DNA of 33,480 nt from Methanosarcina spelaei (lineage in GTDB: Archaea; Halobacteriota; Methanosarcinia; Methanosarcinales; Methanosarcinaceae). The number at the start of each line of letters is the position of its first letter. The stretch's first letter is position 1. Where the stretch lies: assembly GCF_002287235.1 (NCBI RefSeq), contig NZ_LMVP01000346.1, forward strand, positions 1-33,480, read 5' to 3'. Positions 8,105 through 32,157 of this stretch are shown here, in pieces. The position numbers were made by a program, and so were the translations under genes. Under the pieces are notes generated by a model. It made no database searches and was not told the DNA's origin. It saw only the letters and a list, made by a program, of their open reading frames with translations.

Positions 8105-8932
8105 TTAATAAAGTTCTTTGCGGACTTCTTCCCAGCTCTTTCCTTCACAGACCTTCTTTGCGATTTTTACTGCATCAAGTGGTGTTCTTCCATATATCGA
8201 ATTGCTAAAGGTATTAACGAAGCGCCTGTCTACGGCAGCACCTCCACAGGCCACAGGGACACACTCGGATTCCAGAGCATTTGCAAGGGCTTTGAGGCCT
8301 TCTCTAGTTGTGCTCATAAGGGTTGTTCCGGTGACAAGATCAGCATTTGTTACTTTTACGGCTTTAACAGCTGCTTCGACCGTTATGTCACTTCCAAGAT
8401 CAACTACTTCGAAGCCATTTGCTCTGAGAATAGCAGCTACGATATTCTTGCCTATGTCATGCAGATCCCCTTCAATTACAAGGGATACTACCTTCCCTTG
8501 GAAGTGGATATCTCTTATCTTTCCTTGGCAGAGTTTCACTCCTTCTATAAGGGCTTCATTTGCTAGCAGGATTTCAGGCAGATAGCTTCTTCCAATGTCG
8601 TAAAGCTCACAGACAGTTTGAATTCCGGGCATAAGGGCATTTGAGACCAGGTCTGTTGGATCTTTTCCTTTTTCAAGCAAGGCAGCTGTAAGTTTTATTG
8701 TTTCATCACTATTTCCCTCGATTACAGCTTTTGTCACAGCTGCATATTCGGGATCTTTCGGCCCGCTCTGCTTCTTAACCTGGTTGGCAGGTCTCACTCC
8801 TTTACTCCTATCTCCAAGATCTACCCCAAGGCCTATCATAATCCCCTCATCGATGAATTTTTTGAATTTTGCAGGCTCTTTTTCTTTCATCTCGAAGATT
8901 TTCTGAACTGCAATGTCGATGTGCCTGATCAT
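8105..8932 (-). CDS. Corrinoid (cobalamin-binding) methyltransferase subunit, MtaC/MtbC-like
   Basis: A methyl carrier protein: the cobalt of its corrinoid accepts a methyl group from a substrate-specific methyltransferase and passes it to a coenzyme M methyltransferase. Numbered from the ATG at 8932 (275 aa), a helical cap domain (residues ~60-140, with [21 protein letters not shown]) precedes a Rossmann-like B12 domain. The B12 domain has the DxHxxG signature Asp156-Leu-His158-Asp-Ile-Gly161, with His158 as lower axial ligand, and the loops [11 protein letters not shown] and TGTTLMSTT. About 55 N-terminal residues precede the cap. A longer frame exists up to 9133, but its extra residues are the out-of-frame shadow of the upstream gene. 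The chosen start overlaps that gene's stop as ATGA (8929-8932), which implies translational coupling. Confidence 0.93.
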
Positions 8933-10041
8933 TCTTTCATCCCACCCAAGACATTTTCTTTCATATTCTTTCCAATACCGATCCCAATCTGCCTGATAAG
9001 GTCTTCCACGTCGTCGTATCTCGGGATTGGGGTTTCTTTGCAGGCCCTGACATATGCTCTGATGTTTTCGAGTGGGGTTCCAGATGAAACACCACATGCA
9101 GTCCCGATAATATCGGTTCCCTGCAAGATGCATTCCCGGGTTCTGTTATAAACCTGTTCTGGAGTGCCGTTAGGCATCAGGTCTATGACATCCAGGCTTC
9201 CAAGAATGGACATCTCGTTGCCCATTACTTGACGGCAATACCAGACTGGAACAGTATCAAAGGAGAAGCAGTCAATTCCGCTCTGCTTTATGTAAGGCAG
9301 GAGTTTACTTGCATCTCCGCAGATGTGCAATATCTGAGGACAGCTGATTTCCTTTGCTATTCTTTTGTGAGCAGGAAGTACAAATTCTCTGTACGTTTCT
9401 GCAGAGATCAGATTGCTGGAAGCCGATGGGTCGGCGAGGAAGATGATATGTGCCCCATAAGCAGCCTGCAATTTCCCGTAAGCTACCACGAAATCAGTTG
9501 CTGCTTCAATGAAAGAATGGGCCTTTTCAGGGTCGGTCTTTGTCCATCTAGCCATATTTTCTACGCCTGCTATGTGACCTGCTACCGTAAAAGGAGCGGT
9601 AAGGCCGGGGATGATAGGAAGCATGCCGTCGTAACGCTTCCTTAATTCGTCGATTGCTCCAAGGACTACAGGAATTCTTCCGTTTTCTTCCAGGTTGTCG
9701 GACCAGGTTATGTCAGCAGGATCCGTATAAGCAGGGCTGGTTACGGGGGGTCTTTCCGTTTTATCCCAGTCAAGCTTGCACCCCATAGTTTCTGCTTCGA
9801 GAGAAATATCAAACTGAGGACGTGCAGCCTCAACACCGCATACTTCATAGGGAGCAGCTGCAAGATCTGCCATCATCTTGCTGTCAAAGTGGGCTTTTGG
9901 CCACGAAGCATTGCATATCTGCATCAATTCCGTTGTGGTCTGAGCGAGGGGGTTTGCAGGGGGTACGTAGTCAACTCTGCCTCCTAGCACTGCTGCCAGG
10001 ACTCTTCGGGTTGGAGTCATTTCACTTACCAAGCTATACAT
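8929..10041 (-). CDS. Methylcobamide:coenzyme M methyltransferase, MtaA/MtbA family
   Basis: This is a member of the uroporphyrinogen decarboxylase-like barrel family that moves a methyl group from a corrinoid protein to coenzyme M. The zinc ligands fall at His239, Cys241 (LHICGD) and Cys316 ([11 protein letters not shown]), the same spacing and numbering as in MtaA/MtbA, so thiol activation is expected to be intact. The length of 370 aa is slightly above the usual ~340. The start is uncertain: GGAG directly abuts the ATG at 10041, so the TTG at codon 4 (10032) or the ATG at codon 8 (10020, MTPTRR) may be used; the family usually begins close to TPTRR. It is the first gene of a two-gene operon with the corrinoid protein. 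No substrate-specific MtaB/MtmB/MtbB/MttB partner is in the window. Confidence 0.92.
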
Positions 10042-16677: not shown

Positions 16678-19632
16678 TTATTTTTCAGACAATTTTTTGT
16701 AGTTCCAAAACCATGGTAGATCTTTTGCGGTAAACTTTGGACATTTTTCTATAGATGATACTGCGCCCAATTTCTGCGCTTTTCTCCAAAATTCTTGAAC
16801 AACATGATCAAATTTATTAATCATTTCTGGATAATATTCTAATATTCCAATTAACATATAGTTAATATTTTTACTGTAACATATTCTACTATCAGAATAT
16901 ACACCAGGAGGTAGTATGTTTATCAGTTGATTAAATATACTAGATAGTGAAGTACTTAAAACTCCTAAGGCTTTTAAACATATTTCATTTTTTGGTTTTC
17001 GACCTTCCAATAAATTAAATATCAGTGGATGTCGAGCATTGAAAATTACCTCTTCAGTATCAAAAGCATATGGAATATGGACGAAAAAAGGTGTTCCATT
17101 GTTGCCATTATTAACCATTCCATATGTTAAAAACATACCTTGAATCCAGAAGACTCCTTTTTCTTCAGAATTGTTTGAGTTGATTTCGATCACAACACCT
17201 GGAATTGATGTTATTAATATGTGTTTGGGATTACCTAGTATTCCTTCAAAAAAATCTTTTTTGACAAGATTTTCATCTCCGTCAAATAATAAAAGTGGGC
17301 ATTCTATAGTGGCTTCGTTCTTAAATTCTTCAAATATTCTTTTGTCAGATATTTTGTCTGGCCAATCATTGACACCTGTTATTCCAATAAATGGTAATGT
17401 CTCTAAATCATGTACAAATTTATAGGTCTTTTTACCATTAGCGGATAAAAATGGAAGAGGAACATTTTCAAGAAATATTTTCTTAATCTGTTGATTAATT
17501 GGCCTCGGGTTAATTGAGTATTTGTTTCTCCCAGGATTTAAAATTTCTAGTTTTAGTATTTCATCAACATATTTTAGGTACTTTTCTACTGAATTTGAAT
17601 TTCTATATGTTTTTAAGTGTTTATCAAGCTCTTCTATATATTTTAAGTTAATTAAATTTGCGATTCTTGAGTATTTTTTATCTTTAACTACCATCTGTCT
17701 ACTAGGGCTGAGGGTTAACTTCTCTTGGCCTGATAGATTAATTGATACGTCTAAATTGTCAGATATCCAATCGGGAAAGAGACCTTCAGAAGGTATTGAA
17801 AATCCCCTTTGTGCAATGATTCTGCAATTATCGTTAGAATAATACCTGCCCGAAACAACATTTATCCGACCCTCTATACCTTCCAAATTATCATTTTCTC
17901 CAAAAAGTATTTCAAAATACTTTTTTGCCTTCTTTCCTGTTGAAGGAATTTCCCCAGGTAATAGTGGTCTATATGTTTGTGTTCTTTCGATAGTATGAAC
18001 TTTAATAGAATATTCAATGAACGGGGCTATTTCCGAGATTTTCTCCATTAATGTCTCAGCAGAAAATGGATGATTGGGTTTTAAGTATAGAGTTATTTTT
18101 GTTCCATACTTCGAACGCTTAGATTGCTTTTTTATAAAATAATCATAAGCCGTTGGAATCTCAAAATATATTGGTTTAGATGGATTAAGTTCGTCTTCAA
18201 ACGTTTTCCTTCTGCTCTCAACAGTAAATTTATTGGCAACCATAAAAACTGATAAAATACCTATTCCAAATTCACTTATAGGATCCACGTTTACATTTTT
18301 TTGTCGAAAATCTAAACTCTGGTAGTAACTTCTGCCCACTTTCATGAAGTAATTCTCAAATATTTTTTCATCCATACCAATGCCATTATCTTCAACAATT
18401 AGTTCATCCTTTATTAAAGAAACTTCTATAGAGGGGTTGTATCCATTTCCTTCTCTTTTTTCCAGAGATTCTCTATAACGTACAGCATCTACAGAGTTCT
18501 GCAAAAGCTCTCGAAGTGCTACAATTGGATCTCCATAGAGTCCTTCTCCCATCAGTAAATCAAGGACTCTACAGTAATCAAGTTCAAAATGGAAATCACA
18601 ATATTCATAACCAATAGAATGAATCTCTGCATCAACAGGCTCAGAAAGTTTAAGTGTATACTTTTCCTCAAAATTGTCTCTGTAACTTGAAACTAACTGA
18701 TAACTATCTTCTATTTCCTTATCGATTTCTTTTATGAACTTTCTAAGTGTTCGTTCCTGTTCTGGATGTTTACAATCAGCTACAATTTTTATCTTTTCAG
18801 GTGTAATCGGAAATCCGGTTATACAGAGATGTTTATTCCACTCTTTGATGCTAATTTCATCTTTTGGATTTAGGTAGTAGAATAAATGTTTCGGAGTTCT
18901 TTCGGGATCGATATCCAATTTATCAGCTAGTCGAAATATTACAGCTAAATACTGAACGTTAACTGGTTTATCTAGTACAAAAGTATTATTTGGCCAAGAT
19001 TGAGTATTATACAAATCTTTCACTGGGAGCTCATGACTGTCACATACCGCCATTACCCAGTTACAGTATGGAATGCCTTTCCATGAAATTTCAGAGTCCA
19101 ATTCATATTCTTCGATTATTTTGTGTGCATGTTGAACATGATTTTTTCGAAGAAAATCAGTAAACGCTTTGTTTTCCATATTAAGCGCGACTTCATAATC
19201 ACTATTGTTTTTCGCTTCCTCGAACTTTTCGTATAATTCTTCGTTTGAGGTTAAATGTTTTTTAAATTCACTAGTTTTAACTATTTGCTTCCGATCATCA
19301 GAAGATGCGATCATTCCTATATCATGAAGATAGGCAGCGTAAATAAGTATGGAAATTTCAATAGAATTTAATTGTTTGAGAGTCTCACAAGGAATTATTT
19401 TTTCTATATTTTCAATTACATGAACACTATGATTAGCATTATGCAATGTGAACTCAGGCATATTTTCCGGAATTCTTTCTAGTAAAGGAGCAGCCTTGCG
19501 AACAACTGAAATTATATTTTGTGAAATTTCATGATCTACTAATGAAGTCTTTTCTATTTCTTCATTCTCTTTTTCAAAAAGTTTCTTAAACAGACCTGTT
19601 TGTTGTAATCTCAGAATCGCATCTTCAGACAT
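16678..19632 (-). CDS. HD domain fused to Hsp90-like GHKL ATPase (putative defence protein)
   Basis: This 984-residue cytosolic protein has an N-terminal HD-type phosphohydrolase domain: HNANHSVHV with His68, the HD doublet His103-Asp104 in YLHDIGM, and the distal RLADKLDID at ~234-241. It is followed from ~355 by a GHKL/Hsp90-type ATPase with the N-box ALRELLQNSVDAVRY (Glu375, Asn379), DNGIGM (415-420) and EFGIG (454-458). The remaining ~500 residues look like the Hsp90 middle-domain fold plus a tail I cannot assign. HD domains in such fusions usually hydrolyse nucleotides or nucleic-acid phosphoesters. GGAG lies 8 nt upstream. The gene is AT-rich compared with its neighbours and shares its leader sequence (19651-19797) with the ATPase/DUF4435 operon. 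I infer an antiviral or abortive-infection role; none is proven. Confidence 0.8.
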   Translation of the reverse strand: MSEDAILRLQQTGLFKKLFEKENEEIEKTSLVDHEISQNIISVVRKAAPLLERIPENMPEFTLHNANHSVHVIENIEKIIPCETLKQLNSIEISILIYAAYLHDIGMIASSDDRKQIVKTSEFKKHLTSNEELYEKFEEAKNNSDYEVALNMENKAFTDFLRKNHVQHAHKIIEEYELDSEISWKGIPYCNWVMAVCDSHELPVKDLYNTQSWPNNTFVLDKPVNVQYLAVIFRLADKLDIDPERTPKHLFYYLNPKDEISIKEWNKHLCITGFPITPEKIKIVADCKHPEQERTLRKFIKEIDKEIEDSYQLVSSYRDNFEEKYTLKLSEPVDAEIHSIGYEYCDFHFELDYCRVLDLLMGEGLYGDPIVALRELLQNSVDAVRYRESLEKREGNGYNPSIEVSLIKDELIVEDNGIGMDEKIFENYFMKVGRSYYQSLDFRQKNVNVDPISEFGIGILSVFMVANKFTVESRRKTFEDELNPSKPIYFEIPTAYDYFIKKQSKRSKYGTKITLYLKPNHPFSAETLMEKISEIAPFIEYSIKVHTIERTQTYRPLLPGEIPSTGKKAKKYFEILFGENDNLEGIEGRINVVSGRYYSNDNCRIIAQRGFSIPSEGLFPDWISDNLDVSINLSGQEKLTLSPSRQMVVKDKKYSRIANLINLKYIEELDKHLKTYRNSNSVEKYLKYVDEILKLEILNPGRNKYSINPRPINQQIKKIFLENVPLPFLSANGKKTYKFVHDLETLPFIGITGVNDWPDKISDKRIFEEFKNEATIECPLLLFDGDENLVKKDFFEGILGNPKHILITSIPGVVIEINSNNSEEKGVFWIQGMFLTYGMVNNGNNGTPFFVHIPYAFDTEEVIFNARHPLIFNLLEGRKPKNEICLKALGVLSTSLSSIFNQLINILPPGVYSDSRICYSKNINYMLIGILEYYPEMINKFDHVVQEFWRKAQKLGAVSSIEKCPKFTAKDLPWFWNYKKLSEK

Positions 19633-19970: not shown

Positions 19971-20843
19971 TCATAAGTTCGGATTTAAGGTAATTTGATC
20001 ATTTTCTGTTTCCCATCTTTTTATTGAATCATATAACTCTGTATTAACAAAATCTGAGGAATTATAAGCTTCTATTAATTTCGATTCAATGATATCATGA
20101 AGTTGTTGTTGATTTAATTTTTTGCAATCGCAAATGCCGAATATATATTGAAGCCCCAAAATTAATATTTTAATCATATCATGACCTCTACAGACCTGCC
20201 ATTTGTCATGTGCTATATCAAAGGCTTCGTTCAGTTTGTTTTTTAGAGTTTGTGCATCGTACCGGAAATTTCCGTTTTTGCCCAGTATTTCAAAAATGAA
20301 GTTGTTCAAATTAAATTCTAAGTTCTCATTGTCAACAAATTTTTTAAAATCTAATTCATTGAAACTTAGAGGAAATCCTTTTTGAGATATCCATAACAGA
20401 TATCCGATCCAAACCGAACTTTCTAATAAGGTTTCTCTTAAATCTTTACTGTTTTTTTCAAAAAAAGCTTTCAACCTTTCTTCATTTGCATACTCACTCA
20501 TGGCATAATCAAGAGCTTTTGTCTTTATCATCATGGTTTCAATATCGTGAGTATCTGTGACCAAAATGTCAGAATTCAAACTTTGGCCATCAAGCCGATA
20601 AAAATCAGAATCTACAATACCAAAAACTTTTAAAGCCGGGTTTCTTTCTTTAATCATTGGAATTGCTTTAATTACTTTTTGTTTTCCTGTAGCATCTTTT
20701 ATATGGCAATGTTTAGTGTCCACAAACTTATCGAAAAGGACCTTATCTGTTCTCCCTTCAACCAAAACAACTGCTCCTTTGCGATATTTTTTATTCATAC
20801 AAATTTCATTTGCAATTGCTTCGGCTTTTATTTTATCTCTCAC
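19971..20843 (-). CDS. DUF4435 TOPRIM-like nuclease, AriB-like (PARIS effector candidate)
   Basis: This is a 290-residue protein with the DUF4435 pattern, a TOPRIM-like metal-dependent nuclease fold. It has Glu29 in VVLVEGRTDKVLF, the Asp-x-Asp pair Asp78/Asp80 in FGIVDSDF, and TDTHDIETMM (Asp100, Glu102), with the family's C-terminal GHDMIKIL at 220-227. In the PARIS system AriB is a DUF4435 protein released by its ATPase partner AriA to act as toxic nuclease on host tRNA after a phage anti-restriction protein is sensed; the position of the first Glu is close to that of E. coli AriB. Translation starts with GTG at 20843, overlapping the ATPase stop by 4 nt (GTGA), so the pair is translationally coupled. 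Other DUF4435 defence pairs cannot be excluded. Confidence 0.8.
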   Translation of the reverse strand: MRDKIKAEAIANEICMNKKYRKGAVVLVEGRTDKVLFDKFVDTKHCHIKDATGKQKVIKAIPMIKERNPALKVFGIVDSDFYRLDGQSLNSDILVTDTHDIETMMIKTKALDYAMSEYANEERLKAFFEKNSKDLRETLLESSVWIGYLLWISQKGFPLSFNELDFKKFVDNENLEFNLNNFIFEILGKNGNFRYDAQTLKNKLNEAFDIAHDKWQVCRGHDMIKILILGLQYIFGICDCKKLNQQQLHDIIESKLIEAYNSSDFVNTELYDSIKRWETENDQITLNPNL

Positions 20844-22225
20844 TGACCTTCACCTTCTTCAAGGTCAACTGTTAAATCCCAACGATCATCAATAATTTGA
20901 GGTGAATGTGTCGCAACAATAATGTTTAGTTTATTAAGTTCTGCAATTCTCAGTAAATTCTTGATTATTTCTTCTTGCCACATTATGTGCAATGAGATTT
21001 CAGGCTCGTCTATTAGAATTATTGAATTCTCTTCGGTTTTGAACAGCAATTCGTAGTTTATTATAACTTCGTGTTGCTCACCAGAAGATAATTTTTCAGG
21101 GGTCAAAACTTTACCATTCTTGAATTTAAAAACGAAACCTTTGCTTTTTTTAACTTCAATTGACTTATTTGAAAATTGTTTATTAATTATTTCTTTAAAT
21201 AAGCTCATTTTTCTTGCCAAATCATCAAACACAGATAATTTTGCTTCGGTATCTTCAATATAAAGTGTAAGGACTCTTCTTCTTTCACTTGTCATATTTT
21301 CTTGAGGTAATTCATTGGATTCTCTGGACTCTAAAATACCTAATTCCATAAGATTTTTATTTTTGGTCTCTATTTCTTGAATCCTTTCGTAAATTGCTTT
21401 CTCATCGAGTATCTCAACAGCATCCGAACCTGCATTTTGAATTAATCTGTGGGGAAACGTACTATCGAGCTTCTGAGATATACTTGCATATTCCGAATTT
21501 TTATTTTCTATTCTTTTTACAAGATCCGTAGAATATTCGAGAACTACTTGAACCGGTACAACTTTTTTCCTGTTTGGATCATGTTCTTGATAATCTGTTT
21601 GAGAATCGTATTTCATCAGTCTTTGAGATTCTATCAAATGGACTTTTATTTCCTTCAACTCATCTTTTAATTTATAATAATCAGGCAAATTGGAATAAGA
21701 AGGAGGAAAGCGATATCCATAAATTTTAATTAAATCTGAAATCTCCAGTATGTCTCCTGTTTTCAAATCTTTCCATTTATTAAACTCAACTCTTTCGATT
21801 TGCATATTTATTTCTATAAATTTCAAAATATTCCCAAATTCAAAATCATCTTTTGAGTATTTATCCGGAGTTAGATTATATTCCTCAGTTTTTCCACCTG
21901 ATTTAGTTACATTACATTTCACAAGCTCATATGGAATCTCATCATTGCTGCAAAGAATTAGTTGTTTTATAATTTCAATGCTGGAGATTTCTTCAATGTC
22001 CTCTAATGACTCTTTATTTTCAAATTCGATTTTAAATACATTAAATGGTATTTTTCTAATATATTCAATGTCAACATCTATTGTTGCTTTAATAAGTTTA
22101 AAAATAGTTGTTTTCCCATAACCATTTGGGGCAATTATTATAGTTACTCTTTCATCCGTATTTAGAGGAATATTATAATTATATACATCAAATAAGCCTT
22201 CTATCGAAATCTGTTTTAATCTCAT
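20840..22225 (-). CDS. ABC-type ATPase, AriA-like (PARIS sensor candidate)
   Basis: This is a 461-residue ATPase of the AAA_15/OLD-like ABC class. Walker A is APNGYGKTT at 32-40, then comes a long helical insert (~150-370, with coiled-coil stretches around residues 210-300). The signature LSSGEQHEV is at ~379-386, Walker B IILIDEPEISLH at ~402-413 and the H-loop IVATHSPQII at ~436-445. Such ATPases dimerise head-to-tail and act as sensor or switch for a linked nuclease. The immediately coupled partner is a DUF4435 TOPRIM-like protein, which is the AriA-AriB (PARIS) architecture. GAGGT 8 nt upstream supports the ATG at 22225. The leader repeats the sequence found upstream of the 984-residue HD-GHKL gene. 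AT-rich and probably acquired. Confidence 0.85.
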   Translation of the reverse strand: MRLKQISIEGLFDVYNYNIPLNTDERVTIIIAPNGYGKTTIFKLIKATIDVDIEYIRKIPFNVFKIEFENKESLEDIEEISSIEIIKQLILCSNDEIPYELVKCNVTKSGGKTEEYNLTPDKYSKDDFEFGNILKFIEINMQIERVEFNKWKDLKTGDILEISDLIKIYGYRFPPSYSNLPDYYKLKDELKEIKVHLIESQRLMKYDSQTDYQEHDPNRKKVVPVQVVLEYSTDLVKRIENKNSEYASISQKLDSTFPHRLIQNAGSDAVEILDEKAIYERIQEIETKNKNLMELGILESRESNELPQENMTSERRRVLTLYIEDTEAKLSVFDDLARKMSLFKEIINKQFSNKSIEVKKSKGFVFKFKNGKVLTPEKLSSGEQHEVIINYELLFKTEENSIILIDEPEISLHIMWQEEIIKNLLRIAELNKLNIIVATHSPQIIDDRWDLTVDLEEGEGQ

Positions 22226-23444: not shown

Positions 23445-26309
23445 TCAATCTTCTTCAATATCTTTTTCGTCTTCGTCCTCTTCTTCTGCTTCATCATCTT
23501 CTTTTGCTTCATCATCTTCTAATTCTTCGGTTTCTTCGTCTTCGTCGATAATTTCAAAGTCTTCTGATTCGGCAAACTCATCGAGTTCCTCACCTTCGTC
23601 CTCTGAAACCTCGGCTCCTTCTCCGGCTCCAATTGTTTCTACGGCTTCTTTACCTTCGAAGGCTGTAAGTTTCAGGTTCTGTTCAGCTTTTCCGTTTTCG
23701 ATCCTGGCTATACCTGCAACTATGTCGCCAGGTTTCATATTCATGATTCTTACACCCTGAGTGTTTCTGCCCTGGATCGAGATATCTTTCGCAGGGATGC
23801 GGATAATAATACCATCGGCACTGGTGAAGATAAGTTCATCGTCATCGGCTACGGATCTGACTCTTGAGACAGGGCCGTTCCTCTCGTTGGTAATGATTGT
23901 TATCACGCCTTTTCCGCCACGGCGGTGCGCAGGGTACTGAGAGTACTCTGTTCTCTTGCCAAAGCCGTTTTCGGTAACGGTCAGGAGGGTTGTGGTCTCG
24001 TCAACAATGTCCATACTGACAACTTCATCATCCGGGCCGTCAAGGGTCATACCACGGACACCCCTTGCGGTTCTGCCCATGTGGCGGACGTCTTTCTCAG
24101 GGAAGCGGATAGCTTTGCCTTTCTTTGAAACCATCAGGACTTCTTTTTTGCCGTCTGTAAGGAGAACTCTTACAAGCTCGTCATCCTTATCCAGGGTGAC
24201 TGCAATTATGCCTGCTTTCCTCGGATTTTTGAATTCCGAGAGAGGAGTCTTTTTGATCGTTCCTGCCCTTGTTGCCATAAGCAGGTAGTGGTTTTCGTCA
24301 AATTCCTTGACCGGGATCATGGCATTAATTGTTTCGCCTTCCTGAAGCTCCAGAAGGTTTACTATGGCTTTACCTCTGGATTGCCGGGAGCCTTCAGGGA
24401 TCTCATAGACTTTTTCCCAGTAGAGCCTGCCAAGGTTTGTGAAGAAAAGGATATAGTTATGGGTTGAGGAAATGAAGAGATTTTCCACGAAGTCTTCCTC
24501 CTTCATCTCCATACCGATTATACCCCTGCCTCCACGGCGCTGCATGGTGTAAGTCGTGAGCGGGATGCGTTTTATGTAGCCTCCATTAGTAATCGTGACA
24601 ACAACTTCCTCTTCGTGAATCAGATCCTCTTCTCTGACATCAGAAGCCGCCTGCACGATTTTTGTCCTGCGGGCATCCCCATATTTTTCCTTGAGCTCCA
24701 GAAGTTCATTCCTGATTATCTCGTACTTGAGCTCATCGCTCTCAAGGATCTTATTAAGTTCCTCGATCAGCTTTACAAGGCCTTCCAGCTCTTCAAGAAT
24801 CTTCTGGGTTTCAAGCCCTGTCAGGCGCTGCAGGCGCATGTCAAGGATAGCCTTAGACTGGAGCTCGTCAAGGGCAAAATTCTCCATCAATCCTTGCTTG
24901 GCTTCATCAGCATTTGCTGAGCCCTTTATCAGAGCGACTACCTCGTCTATTTTATCCAGGGCAATCCTGAGCCCTTCAAGGATATGGGCTCTATCCTCGC
25001 TCTTCTTGAGGTCATAAAGCGTCCGCTTCTGGATAATTTCCATCCTGTATTCCAGGTAGATCTCAAGAAGCTCCTTCAGGTTGAGCTCTTTTGTTTTTCC
25101 GTTCACAAGGGCCAGGTTGATTATCCCAAAGCTTGTCTCCATTTGCGTGTGCTTGTAGAGCTGGTTTAAAATAACTTTAGGGTTCGTGCCCCGGGAAAGC
25201 TCGATAACAACCCTGATTCCATCCCTGTCTGACTCGTCCCGAAGATCGGAAATTCCGACAATTATCTTTTCCCTGGCGAGCTGGGCAATGTTTTCAATCA
25301 TTCGGGCTTTATTCACCTGATAGGGAAGTTCTGTTACGATAATCTGCTGCCTGTCCTTCTTTAACTCCTGGATTTCGGCAACTGCCCGGATCTTTACAGG
25401 GCCCCTTCCGGTCATATACGCAGACTTTATGCCTGCTGTCCCAAGGATATGGGCGCCTGTCGGAAAATCAGGACCCTTGATTACAGTCATGAGTTCCGGA
25501 ACTGTCGTCTCCGGATTTTCGATAAGCATGAGGGTCCCGTCAATTACCTCGCCTATGTTATGGGGGGCCATGTTTGTTGCCATTCCCACTGCAATACCTT
25601 GGGACCCGTTGATCAGAAGGTTCGGAAGTTTTGCAGGGAGGACTTCGGGCTCTTCCATTGACCCGTCATAATTTGGCATGAAGGGAACAGTTTCCTTCTC
25701 GATGTCTGCCAGCATCTCCTCTGAGATTCTGTCCATGCGGACTTCGGTGTAACGCATGGCAGCAGCCGAATCTCCATCAATCGACCCGAAATTTCCCTGT
25801 CCGTCAATTAAAGGATAACGAAGTGAGAAAGTCTGGACCATACGCACAATACTGTCATAAACGGCAGTGTCTCCGTGCGGATGGTATTTACCAAGCACAT
25901 CTCCCACAACACGGGCTGACTTCTTGTAGGCCTTGTCATGCGTAATCCCTGCTTCTTTCATTGCAAAAAGGATTCTACGGTGAACCGGTTTTAAGCCGTC
26001 CCGGGCATCTGGAAGTGCCCTTCCGACGATTACGCTCATTGCATAGTTGATGTAAGAGCGTTTCATCTCATTTTCGATAAGGACGGTAGTAACCCCACTC
26101 CTTTCTGGCTCCGGACCTTCATCCTCCGGCTCATCTGAAGCAGGATCAGACACGCTTAATTCCAGTTTTTTGCCCGGTTCTTCGTGTGTAAAGGCGGCTG
26201 AACCGTCCCCATTTTCCGGTTCTCCATCGTTCTCTTCGGGGATAAGGGTAGCCTGATAAGATTTTTTCAATTCATCTTCTGATTTATTCTCGTCTTCGTA
26301 TTTTGCCAT
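23445..26309 (-). CDS. gyrA: DNA gyrase subunit A
   Basis: The breakage-reunion subunit of gyrase introduces negative supercoils with GyrB. The active tyrosine is Tyr187 in AMRYTEVRM. The quinolone-region helix reads [12 protein letters not shown], with Thr148 and Asp152 at the E. coli Ser83/Asp87 positions. The GyrA-box QRRGGRG, the hallmark that separates gyrase from Topo IV, is present in [13 protein letters not shown], followed by a six-bladed pinwheel domain. Unusual are ~65-70 extra N-terminal residues, highly acidic ([21 protein letters not shown]), before the conserved start of the catalytic core, and a ~60-residue Glu/Asp tail. GAGGTGG upstream supports the start. It follows gyrB by 11 bp in one operon. 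Gyrase in Methanosarcinales is known to be of bacterial origin. Confidence 0.97.
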
Positions 26310-26320
26310 TTTTAGCCACC

Positions 26321-28840
<2,520 letters not shown>

Positions 28841-29180: not shown

Positions 29181-30290
29181 TCAAAGCATTCCCATGTCTT
29201 TCAGCCGGTTCGGAAGATAAACCTCGGTTACGAAATCAAGGCCTTTGCCTGCAAAAGCCTGCTGTTCGGCCTTTTTCCCTATATCGAGCTGGAGCTGGAT
29301 TTGTTCTTTCCAGTAGTCGGATTCAAAACGCGGGTCGGAAAGTTCGCTTCGAAGTGCGTTTATATCCTGTTCAGTAAGCTTGTCGGTTGAGAGTTCGTAT
29401 TCGACTATATCCGAGGGCTGGAGACCAAGGAATTTGGCTGCTGGGGTTGCCATAAATTCCGAAAGATGAGCACTTTTTATAGCTCCGTAGGCAACTGAGG
29501 CATAGATCCTGTAAGACCACGGGTCACCGTCCGTAAAAACAGCTACAGGGATACCTAATTCCTCGTTCATACGTTTGATAATCCTTCGGGTTGACCGGGC
29601 AGGCTGGCCTTTCAGGTGAACAAGGATTGCATTGTAGGCTTCATCAAATCCGTTTTCCATCAAACGTGCGTACATACCACCGGTTTCTATGGCAATAATC
29701 ATGCTCGCATCATGGGCTTTGAATTCTATATTTTCCACATTAAAGGGGATCTGGTATCCTCCTTCCCCGACGTCCTTCTGGCAGTGGATATTTCGTTCCC
29801 CGCGCTTTGTCTGCTCTGTAATTTCAAGAGGACCGAACATCGTAGCTCCGTCTTCTTCAGGGCGCATATGGAAATACTCTCTCTGAAGGGCTGTAAGGAG
29901 TTCAAGGTCTTCTATCAGGCGGTCGCTTTCAGCCTGTTCTTTGAATTTTGCAGCTTCCCAACCTTCCGAGATATAGTAAAGTTCTCGAAGCGTTGAGCCG
30001 CGGTTATGGGCCAGATGCTCTTTTATAAGGAAGTCTGTCGCGTAAGTGGTCTTAAGGAGCTGAAATGCCCCTTATACGGTTTATGCGCTCCAATCGCTTT
30101 CTCTGTCCCCGTAGACCCAGACATCGCTCTCATCGGAATATTCTATGTTTGCCTTTGTCCGGCTTGGAAGACTTACACTTGGAACAACCTCATTTTCGAA
30201 CTGGTTGTAAATCTTCTCTGCAAGCTCAAGCAGCTTTTCCCTTGCAAGAGCATCTCCTTGGATTGTTTTGCTATTTGTTTCTCTGGCCAT
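29181..30290 (-). pseudogene. top6A: DNA topoisomerase VI subunit A, interrupted by two in-frame TAA codons
   Basis: Topo VI subunit A (Spo11 homologue) cleaves DNA as an A2B2 enzyme with Top6B. From ATG 30290 (GGGGG RBS) the frame is 369 codons, a standard family length, with no indel. Codon 70 (30081-30083) and codon 73 (30072-30074) are both TAA, where relatives, as I remember them, have Lys in SAKTxKGAFQLL. Beyond the stops everything is conserved: the winged-helix domain with the catalytic Tyr105 region [10 protein letters not shown], then the TOPRIM domain with [12 protein letters not shown] and [10 protein letters not shown]. No ATG, GTG or TTG occurs in frame between the second stop and the catalytic Tyr; the first ATG is codon 142 (29867). 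A restarted product would lack the nucleophile. TAA is not the pyrrolysine codon. Decay, readthrough or sequence error are the options. Confidence 0.88.
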
Positions 30291-30291
30291 T

Positions 30292-32157
30292 TTATGCCCC
30301 CTTAAAGGCTTTTGCCCCGGTTACAAGCTCTTCTTCAAGCCCTTCCACAACAAGGTCAGGAAACTTTCCGAGTTCTTTGTCAGTTGCAGATTCTATCCTG
30401 TAACTGAGCACCTTTGAAGACCCGACTGCTGCGGAGATATCCCATACATAGTCGTAATCATTGCCCAGAGTCACAACTTTTGGTTCGGGCTTTGCTCCGA
30501 GGATTGTCCAGGGCAGCATCTCATGGACCCTGAAAGCATGTGCAGAGGTTCCAAAGTTCTTGACCTTTATTACAACATCTGCAGTTCCATCCTCGTTCCT
30601 CTTCACTTTTCTGTGTACGAGCAGGTTTCCCATAATCTTTGCAACAACAGGATTAATGTCAGGGACATCTTTTTCCAGGATATTCGCAACTTTTACAGCC
30701 ATCTTAGGGAGTACTTTTGTAATGATGATCTCTTTTTCTCTTCGCTTCTTGAGGTTGCTCTGCTTGCTCAGATAGTGCTTGAGCTTTCTTGCAACGTCTT
30801 TGATAGCAAGGTCAATCTCTTCCTTGATTACAGGAATGTCAGCAATAGCATCTTTTGATTCCGAAGTGAAAGGTACGTTAATGGAAGCAACGTGAATCAG
30901 GAGAATGGCCGGCCCTACAGGAACTCCCCCTCCCGGCTGGTTTAAACCGTATTGTTTCCATTTAATGTCCTCTACGGCATGCGTGGTCACACAGCCTCCC
31001 TGCTGGTAAAGCAAAGGCACACGGTTAGCAAAACGCATTATACTGATCTTTTCTTCTTTCGGAAGGTTTCCTCCGTAAGCGAGCCCCACTTCCACTACAA
31101 AAGGATTTCCGGAATATACTGCGGGTTTTCGGGTGCTTGTGGCAATAAAATCCACGTTCGTTTCTTTTTCAAGTCCCCTGTAGATCAGTTCTTCCCCTAT
31201 TGGGGAAAGGCAGTCTGTAGGAGGAGACATGATCTTTACTTTCTCAAAAGCCTCAATCAGTTTTCTTGCCTCATGGCGGCCAAGGGCATGAGGATCGATC
31301 TCAGGGTCAAGCCCTGAAGCTTTGCAGATTTCCTCGGCAGTTAACAGGCCTATTTTACAAAAAGAGTAGCGGAGAAATGGAGCAAGTTTCTGGCGCTCAG
31401 TGTAATGGAGCATTTTCATTAGAGTGCCAAGCTCTATACCTTCAGGATGAGGCAGGATTTCTTCGGCTGGCTTTGGCATTTTATCCGTGGCTCTTTCAAA
31501 AACCTCTTCATTGCCGTCAGGATCTATAAGGGTAACTCTTGCATGGGGATTCACAATTGCAGTTGCTTTGAGATACTCGTAAATTGACTGCCTTCTCCCT
31601 TTTACATAAGAAGCCTTCATTTCCAGCTCGATCTGAGTCCCGTGCGGACGGAACCAGTCCTTAATTTCATCTTTCAGGATATCAGGCTCATTCGTGCTGG
31701 TATTGATCATAAGCTCGTAATAATGAGCAGGTTGACCGGTGCCGGTTTTGGAGAGAATTTTCGTCTGCCTGCCCGCAGTCATCTGGGAGTATAGCACAGC
31801 TGCGGAAATCCCTATTCCCTGCTGTCCCCTGCTTTGCTTGAGGGCATGGAACCTTGAACCATAGAGAAGCTTTGCAAAAACCTTAGGAATTTGCTCTTTT
31901 ATAATTCCTGGCCCGTTGTCTTCTATAATAACAGTTACGTAGTCCTGTCCTGTTCTTTCAATCTGGACAAGAATATCGGGTAGAATTCCAGTTTCTTCGC
32001 AGGCGTCCAGGGCATTGTCAACAGCTTCTTTTACGGTTGTAATGAGGCTTCGGGGAGCCGAGTCAAAACCCAATATCTGCCTGTTTTTTTCAAAAAATTC
32101 TGCAACGCTTATTGACTTTTGATTTTTGGCAAGTTCTTCTGCAATAGGGATTTCCAT
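30292..32157 (-). CDS. top6B: DNA topoisomerase VI subunit B
   Basis: The ATPase subunit of topoisomerase VI, 621 residues, full length for Methanosarcina. The GHKL ATPase domain has [14 protein letters not shown] (Glu44, Asn48), IIEDNGPGI and [18 protein letters not shown] helix-two-turn-helix region ([21 protein letters not shown]) and the transducer domain with the switch lysine loop ([11 protein letters not shown] region) follow, then a C-terminal Ig-like extension ([14 protein letters not shown]) that the M. mazei enzyme also has. GAGGT lies 8-9 nt before the ATG. Its stop is separated from the top6A start by one base, so the two form an operon. The B gene shows no lesion even though its partner gene is interrupted. 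Confidence 0.97.

Follow-up and report, generated by a model that had tools for sequence, protein, structure and literature searches.

The two in-frame TAA codons that interrupt the gene for subunit A of topoisomerase VI (Topo VI) in a 33,480-nucleotide stretch of the Methanosarcina spelaei genome (hereafter the window; contig NZ_LMVP01000346.1) are half of a cluster of four A-to-T substitutions within 20 bases. From comparison with related sequences we consider them probably, though by no means certainly, part of a local read or assembly error in an otherwise normal, functional top6A gene, and we prefer this reading to a very recent mutation. One local burst of wrong bases would have entered the reads or the draft assembly rather than the cell and would have written four substitutions of one type into three neighbouring runs of A, the underlying gene itself being normal and functional. 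The features concerned are as follows.

29181-30290, minus strand: the top6A frame (Topo VI subunit A), 369 codons plus a stop, interrupted at codons 70 and 73; matches PF04406, PF20768 and PF21180, and M. mazei 2q2e with E 2.5e-231.
30074-30093, minus strand: the cluster of four A-to-T (coding strand) substitutions, spanning 20 bases, at 30093, 30092, 30083 and 30074, in three successive A-runs.
30081-30083, minus strand: codon 70, TAA here and AAA in the nearest relative; all 105 loci have Lys at this position.
30072-30074, minus strand: codon 73, TAA here and AAA in the nearest relative; of 105 loci, 97 have Lys and 8 have Arg at this position.
29181-29867, minus strand: the top6A frame after the stops, read from codon 142, the first ordinary start; 228 aa, without the catalytic Tyr106.
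30292-32157, minus strand: top6B, intact, 621 aa.
26321-28222, minus strand: gyrB, intact, 633 aa.
23445-26309, minus strand: gyrA, intact, 954 aa.

A sequence-only reading of this DNA had placed two TAA codons in top6A, at positions 70 and 73 of its 369-codon frame, and both are found there on the minus strand, the sole stops inside the frame in the sequence as given. No single unbroken frame thus spans all of the Top6A domains. The rest of the gene is intact, as that reading had also held. All three Pfam families, TP6A_N, Topo_VI_alpha and TOP6A-Spo11_Toprim, match; the winged-helix domain that carries the catalytic tyrosine scores above its cut-off (PF04406), and the TOPRIM domain (PF21180, E 4.4e-59) retains its acidic residues E202, D254, D256 and E342. 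Subunit A of M. mazei Topo VI (2q2e) has the same length and aligns in the same register over residues 3-369, with R102 and the catalytic tyrosine also kept; the gene in the window differs from it in carrying E66D, R67W and the stops at codons 70 and 73. The tyrosine, which the sequence-only reading had numbered 105, is residue 106 by the 2q2e alignment and in the M. mazei numbering of PMC13040014, where R102 and the TOPRIM residues are also named.

Tyr106 lies downstream of the stops, and the first ATG, GTG or TTG beyond codon 73 is codon 142, past the tyrosine (ATA at codon 89 and CTG at codon 93 were not counted as starts), so that the sequence-only reading was right to find no start between the stops and the nucleophile. 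In the sequence as written, translation would end after 69 residues and a restart at codon 142 would yield only a 228-residue piece that lacks Tyr106, so that no Topo VI activity is predicted. A genome-wide search (5,088,600 bases in 559 contigs) gave one place for top6A and no second copy; the single place in so fragmented an assembly is among the points in favour of an error. The stop site is interior to its contig, 3.4 kb from the contig end, a position that counts against one.

The sequence-only reading had described two changed codons. Both stops stand, but that description was incomplete, since the nearest genome compared (G004; one contig, 4.56 Mb, 96% DNA identity across top6A) adds two further substitutions of the same type within the same 20 bases. 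Relative to G004, GAA AGG has become GAT TGG at 30093 and 30092 (E66D and R67W), and two AAA codons have become TAA through the changes at 30083 (K70stop) and 30074 (K73stop). When G014, a second relative, is used for polarisation, all four changes fall on the window's own branch, and all four are nonsynonymous. Beyond the cluster there is no other difference from G004 between 30049 and 30240. Residue conservation was examined in 107 loci, a set that combines two collections and so includes some genomes twice; two loci do not cover the region, and in the remaining 105 R67 and K70 are invariant and position 66 is variable. Three of the four changes therefore strike R67 or K70, which are invariant, or K73, where only Lys and Arg occur. 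At the frequency of A-to-T change observed in 108.8 kb of coding sequence from orthologous frames, that whole set would be expected to hold about 0.0005 clusters of four such changes in 20 bases, or about 0.011 if A/T changes in either direction are counted. To judge by these comparisons, the two stops look like half of one event rather than independent changes, and the cluster looks exceptional within conserved coding sequence; we do not extend the latter claim to spacers.

A burst of identical transversions with nothing else changed around it is the kind of pattern that argues for an error, and the pattern of selection on the gene points the same way. Outside the cluster the top6A branch leading to the window carries 13 synonymous and no nonsynonymous changes, compared with 24 and 4 on the sister branch (two further sites could not be polarised), so that the wholly nonsynonymous cluster stands apart from the rest of its own branch. 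The partner gene top6B, described in the sequence-only reading as intact and one base upstream, does end at 30292, one base before top6A begins, and encodes 621 aa without interruption; its branch carries 32 synonymous and 6 nonsynonymous changes against 40 and 7 on the sister branch (8 sites unpolarised), and thus evolves as its sister does. The excess of nonsynonymous changes or of indels expected of a pseudogene after inactivation is absent from top6B and, outside the cluster, from top6A. By these counts both Topo VI subunits have been under purifying selection, top6A until very recently.

These counts bear most heavily on the proposal, raised in the sequence-only reading, that the lineage has lost Topo VI and that gyrase has taken over decatenation. 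The stops themselves and the intact gyrase genes are what such a long-established pseudogene would explain. The absence of nonsynonymous change in top6A outside the cluster, the constraint on top6B, equal to that in the sister lineage, and the lack of any further stop in the top6A frame all contradict an established takeover, and on this selection pattern we ruled it out as scarcely credible.

Functional recoding, in which both UAA codons are read through, probably as Lys, to yield full-length Top6A, would account for a downstream frame that is intact and constrained. That constraint, however, is equally explained by recency or by error, and R67W would persist in the recoded protein, at a residue that is the same in all 105 loci. 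No relative examined has the stops, so they are not a conserved feature, and TAA is the commonest terminator counted, ending 48 of 85 ORFs that retain their stop relative to G004; domain 1 of eRF1 was found three times in open frames. RNA structure around the stops is ordinary: for 141 nt, z is 0.19 and 104 of 200 shuffled sequences fold as well or better. No suppressor tRNA was seen among the 150 of 339 tRNA candidates that were scored, a scan that gave no TTA anticodon in 39 tRNA entries from 50 loci and in which tRNA-Trp and tRNA-Tyr were also uncalled. A literature search on UAA readthrough with Methanosarcina found nothing of use. Taking together the substitution at an invariant site, the stop-free relatives, the ordinary RNA structure and the prevalence of TAA as a terminator, we rejected readthrough as extremely improbable.

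The shortlist that the sequence-only reading had drawn up, a recent event or a sequence error, survives as the two leading readings. The remainder of the assembly bears on both. We tried 826 G004 frames of at least 100 codons, from 1.25 Mb, against 1.02 Mb of the M. spelaei genome, and at cut-offs of at least 88% DNA identity and 80% coverage obtained 113 orthologous ORFs (the 108.8 kb used above). With the 12 gapped ORFs set aside, 101 remained, top6A included, and among these there is no in-frame stop other than the two in top6A. A net frameshift occurs in 2 of the 113 (contig C4, 10212-11194, and contig C135, 37641-37981, both relative to G004). A to T accounts for 100 of 4,122 substitutions in the 113 ORFs, in a genome of 38.9% GC (986 kb counted), and the only other triplet of same-type transversions within 20 bases is an A-to-C triplet in a gene of 89% identity. 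The 113 ORFs recovered from the 826 tried thus gave no sign of an assembly-wide wave of error in genes. This cleanness of the sampled coding sequence tells against an error in top6A, and the same 101 ungapped ORFs favour a real mutation.

Close A/T changes also occur elsewhere in the window, which again weakens the case for an error. Compared over its whole length with G004, the window gives 19 overlapping triplets in which three A/T changes fall within 30 bases. The 17 triplets outside top6A lie mainly where there is no long ORF, and their directions are mixed in 16; the remaining one (23019, 23044 and 23047) consists solely of A-to-T changes on the plus strand. Separately, positions 1-573 of the contig give five overlapping alignments (79-92% identity) to a single 1.2-kb stretch at the syntenic place in G004, and probably belong to a repeat array that the end of the contig truncates.

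Draft-assembly errors that create apparent premature stops are a known general class, although four adjacent substitutions are an unusual form for a short-read consensus error to take, and this too counts against the error reading. What top6A shares with false stops of this class is an isolated break, present in just one draft genome, in a gene that is conserved and under constraint; it differs in that its substitutions are clustered in 20 bases, in place of indels, and in that the sampled remainder of the assembly has no other in-frame stop. Premature stops made by error have been described for long reads (PMC12007338). The published M. spelaei draft has a coverage of 137x (PMC5563889), which makes a consensus error less credible, provided that it is the same assembly.

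The distribution of the stops among relatives favours an error. In the genus, 28 of 30 genomes have a top6A match, and stops occur only in M. spelaei, the 27 other matching genomes having none. In the order, 168 of 185 genomes have a match (114 of 117 among those with completeness of 90% or more and contamination of 5% or less), and no in-frame stop is found in the 149 other genomes among the matches listed (150 of the 168). The sequence-only reading had held that an intact frame in related strains would speak against its proposal; the frame is intact in every relative among the matches listed, but all of these are other species, the comparison being of one genome per species. Three genomes of the order with completeness of 91-95% (G101, G114 and G172), all drafts, gave no top6A match. 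Topo VI is nearly ubiquitous in Archaea and its functions are predicted to be essential (PMC9348778), and it is in this strictly selected enzyme that the burst, and nothing else, appears.

The main rival to an error is a real, very recent multinucleotide mutation, in which one mutagenic event in the strain or culture that was sequenced hit four adenines of the coding strand. We regard it as a serious possibility, if the less probable of the two. Under this reading Top6A would end after 69 residues, leaving gyrase, among the type II topoisomerases found, as the sole one still working. It takes the sequence as it stands, and it fits changes that are side-by-side substitutions and not an indel. 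A single event also accounts for a same-type cluster better than four independent ones would, given the expected number per 108.8 kb. The predicted essentiality of Topo VI weighs against it, and because neither top6A nor top6B shows decay elsewhere, the mutation would have to be extremely recent.

Multinucleotide mutation and short-range template switching are described as introducing several substitutions into a few bases in one event (PMC7954356, PMC12619124), and in this the top6A cluster is alike. It is unlike them in that no template was found for it in the genome or, above chance level, in the window, and in that all four changes share a type and a strand. A genome-wide search allowing 3 mismatches places the changed 25-mer at this site alone, a result that led us to reject a templated origin and that, by arguing against gene conversion, favours an error. 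Within the window, a 10-base match to the changed sequence at 30943 on the opposite strand spans two of the four changed positions, and a pair of 9-base matches takes in the others; since about 0.7 such 10-base matches would be expected by chance (a hand estimate), we give the match at 30943 no weight, and the window holds no templated source beyond chance.

The intact gyrA and gyrB in the same window speak for a recent mutation. PF00521 has one place in the genome, that of gyrase; if Topo VI were inactive, gyrase alone would be left of the type II topoisomerases that were sought. A cell of this kind is conceivable because gyrase replaced Topo VI in Thermoplasma (PMC9348778), a precedent that lends the mutation some support, as does the lack of a top6A match in 3 of the 117 near-complete genomes of the order, all three misses being drafts. 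Genetic data on archaeal topoisomerases are few (PMC8185306). Among titles and the starts of abstracts, we found no report of a Topo VI deletion in Methanosarcina and none of a Topo VI pseudogene or premature stop in archaea, the one paper that surfaced on the latter topic being on Daphnia. That M. spelaei is a natural Topo VI null outside the Thermoplasmatales, produced by a single burst of four A-to-T changes, caught before further decay and living with gyrase as its sole type II topoisomerase, is a tentative proposition that we think less likely than not.

The window holds other genes of note beside the topoisomerase loci. An AAA ATPase of 461 aa and, after it in a frame overlapping by 4 bases, a DUF4435 protein of 290 aa are encoded at 19971-22225 (minus strand). 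PADLOC gives AriA as the best match for the ATPase, to which PtuA models also match, and AriB for the DUF4435 protein; the two look like an anti-phage pair in a Methanosarcina, which we take to be PARIS-type. Adjoining the pair is a gene (16678-19632, minus strand) for a 984-aa protein with HD-CE and GHKL ATPase domains (Pfam), residues 61-278 of which match positions 699-910 of the PADLOC RT_UG24 model. At 8105-10041, also on the minus strand, two overlapping frames encode a protein of the URO-D family (370 aa) and one that binds B12 (342 aa counted from the first ATG, with the actual start perhaps further in), and look like a methyltransferase/corrinoid pair.

If the stops are an error, as we consider probable, comparison with a single near relative is enough to show that what looked like two suspect stops is a cluster of four identical changes, and such a comparison would take away the greater part of the argument for readthrough or for a long-standing loss of Topo VI. 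If instead they are real, M. spelaei would be a viable gyrase-bearing archaeon without Topo VI, in which the division of labour between the two enzymes would be directly testable.
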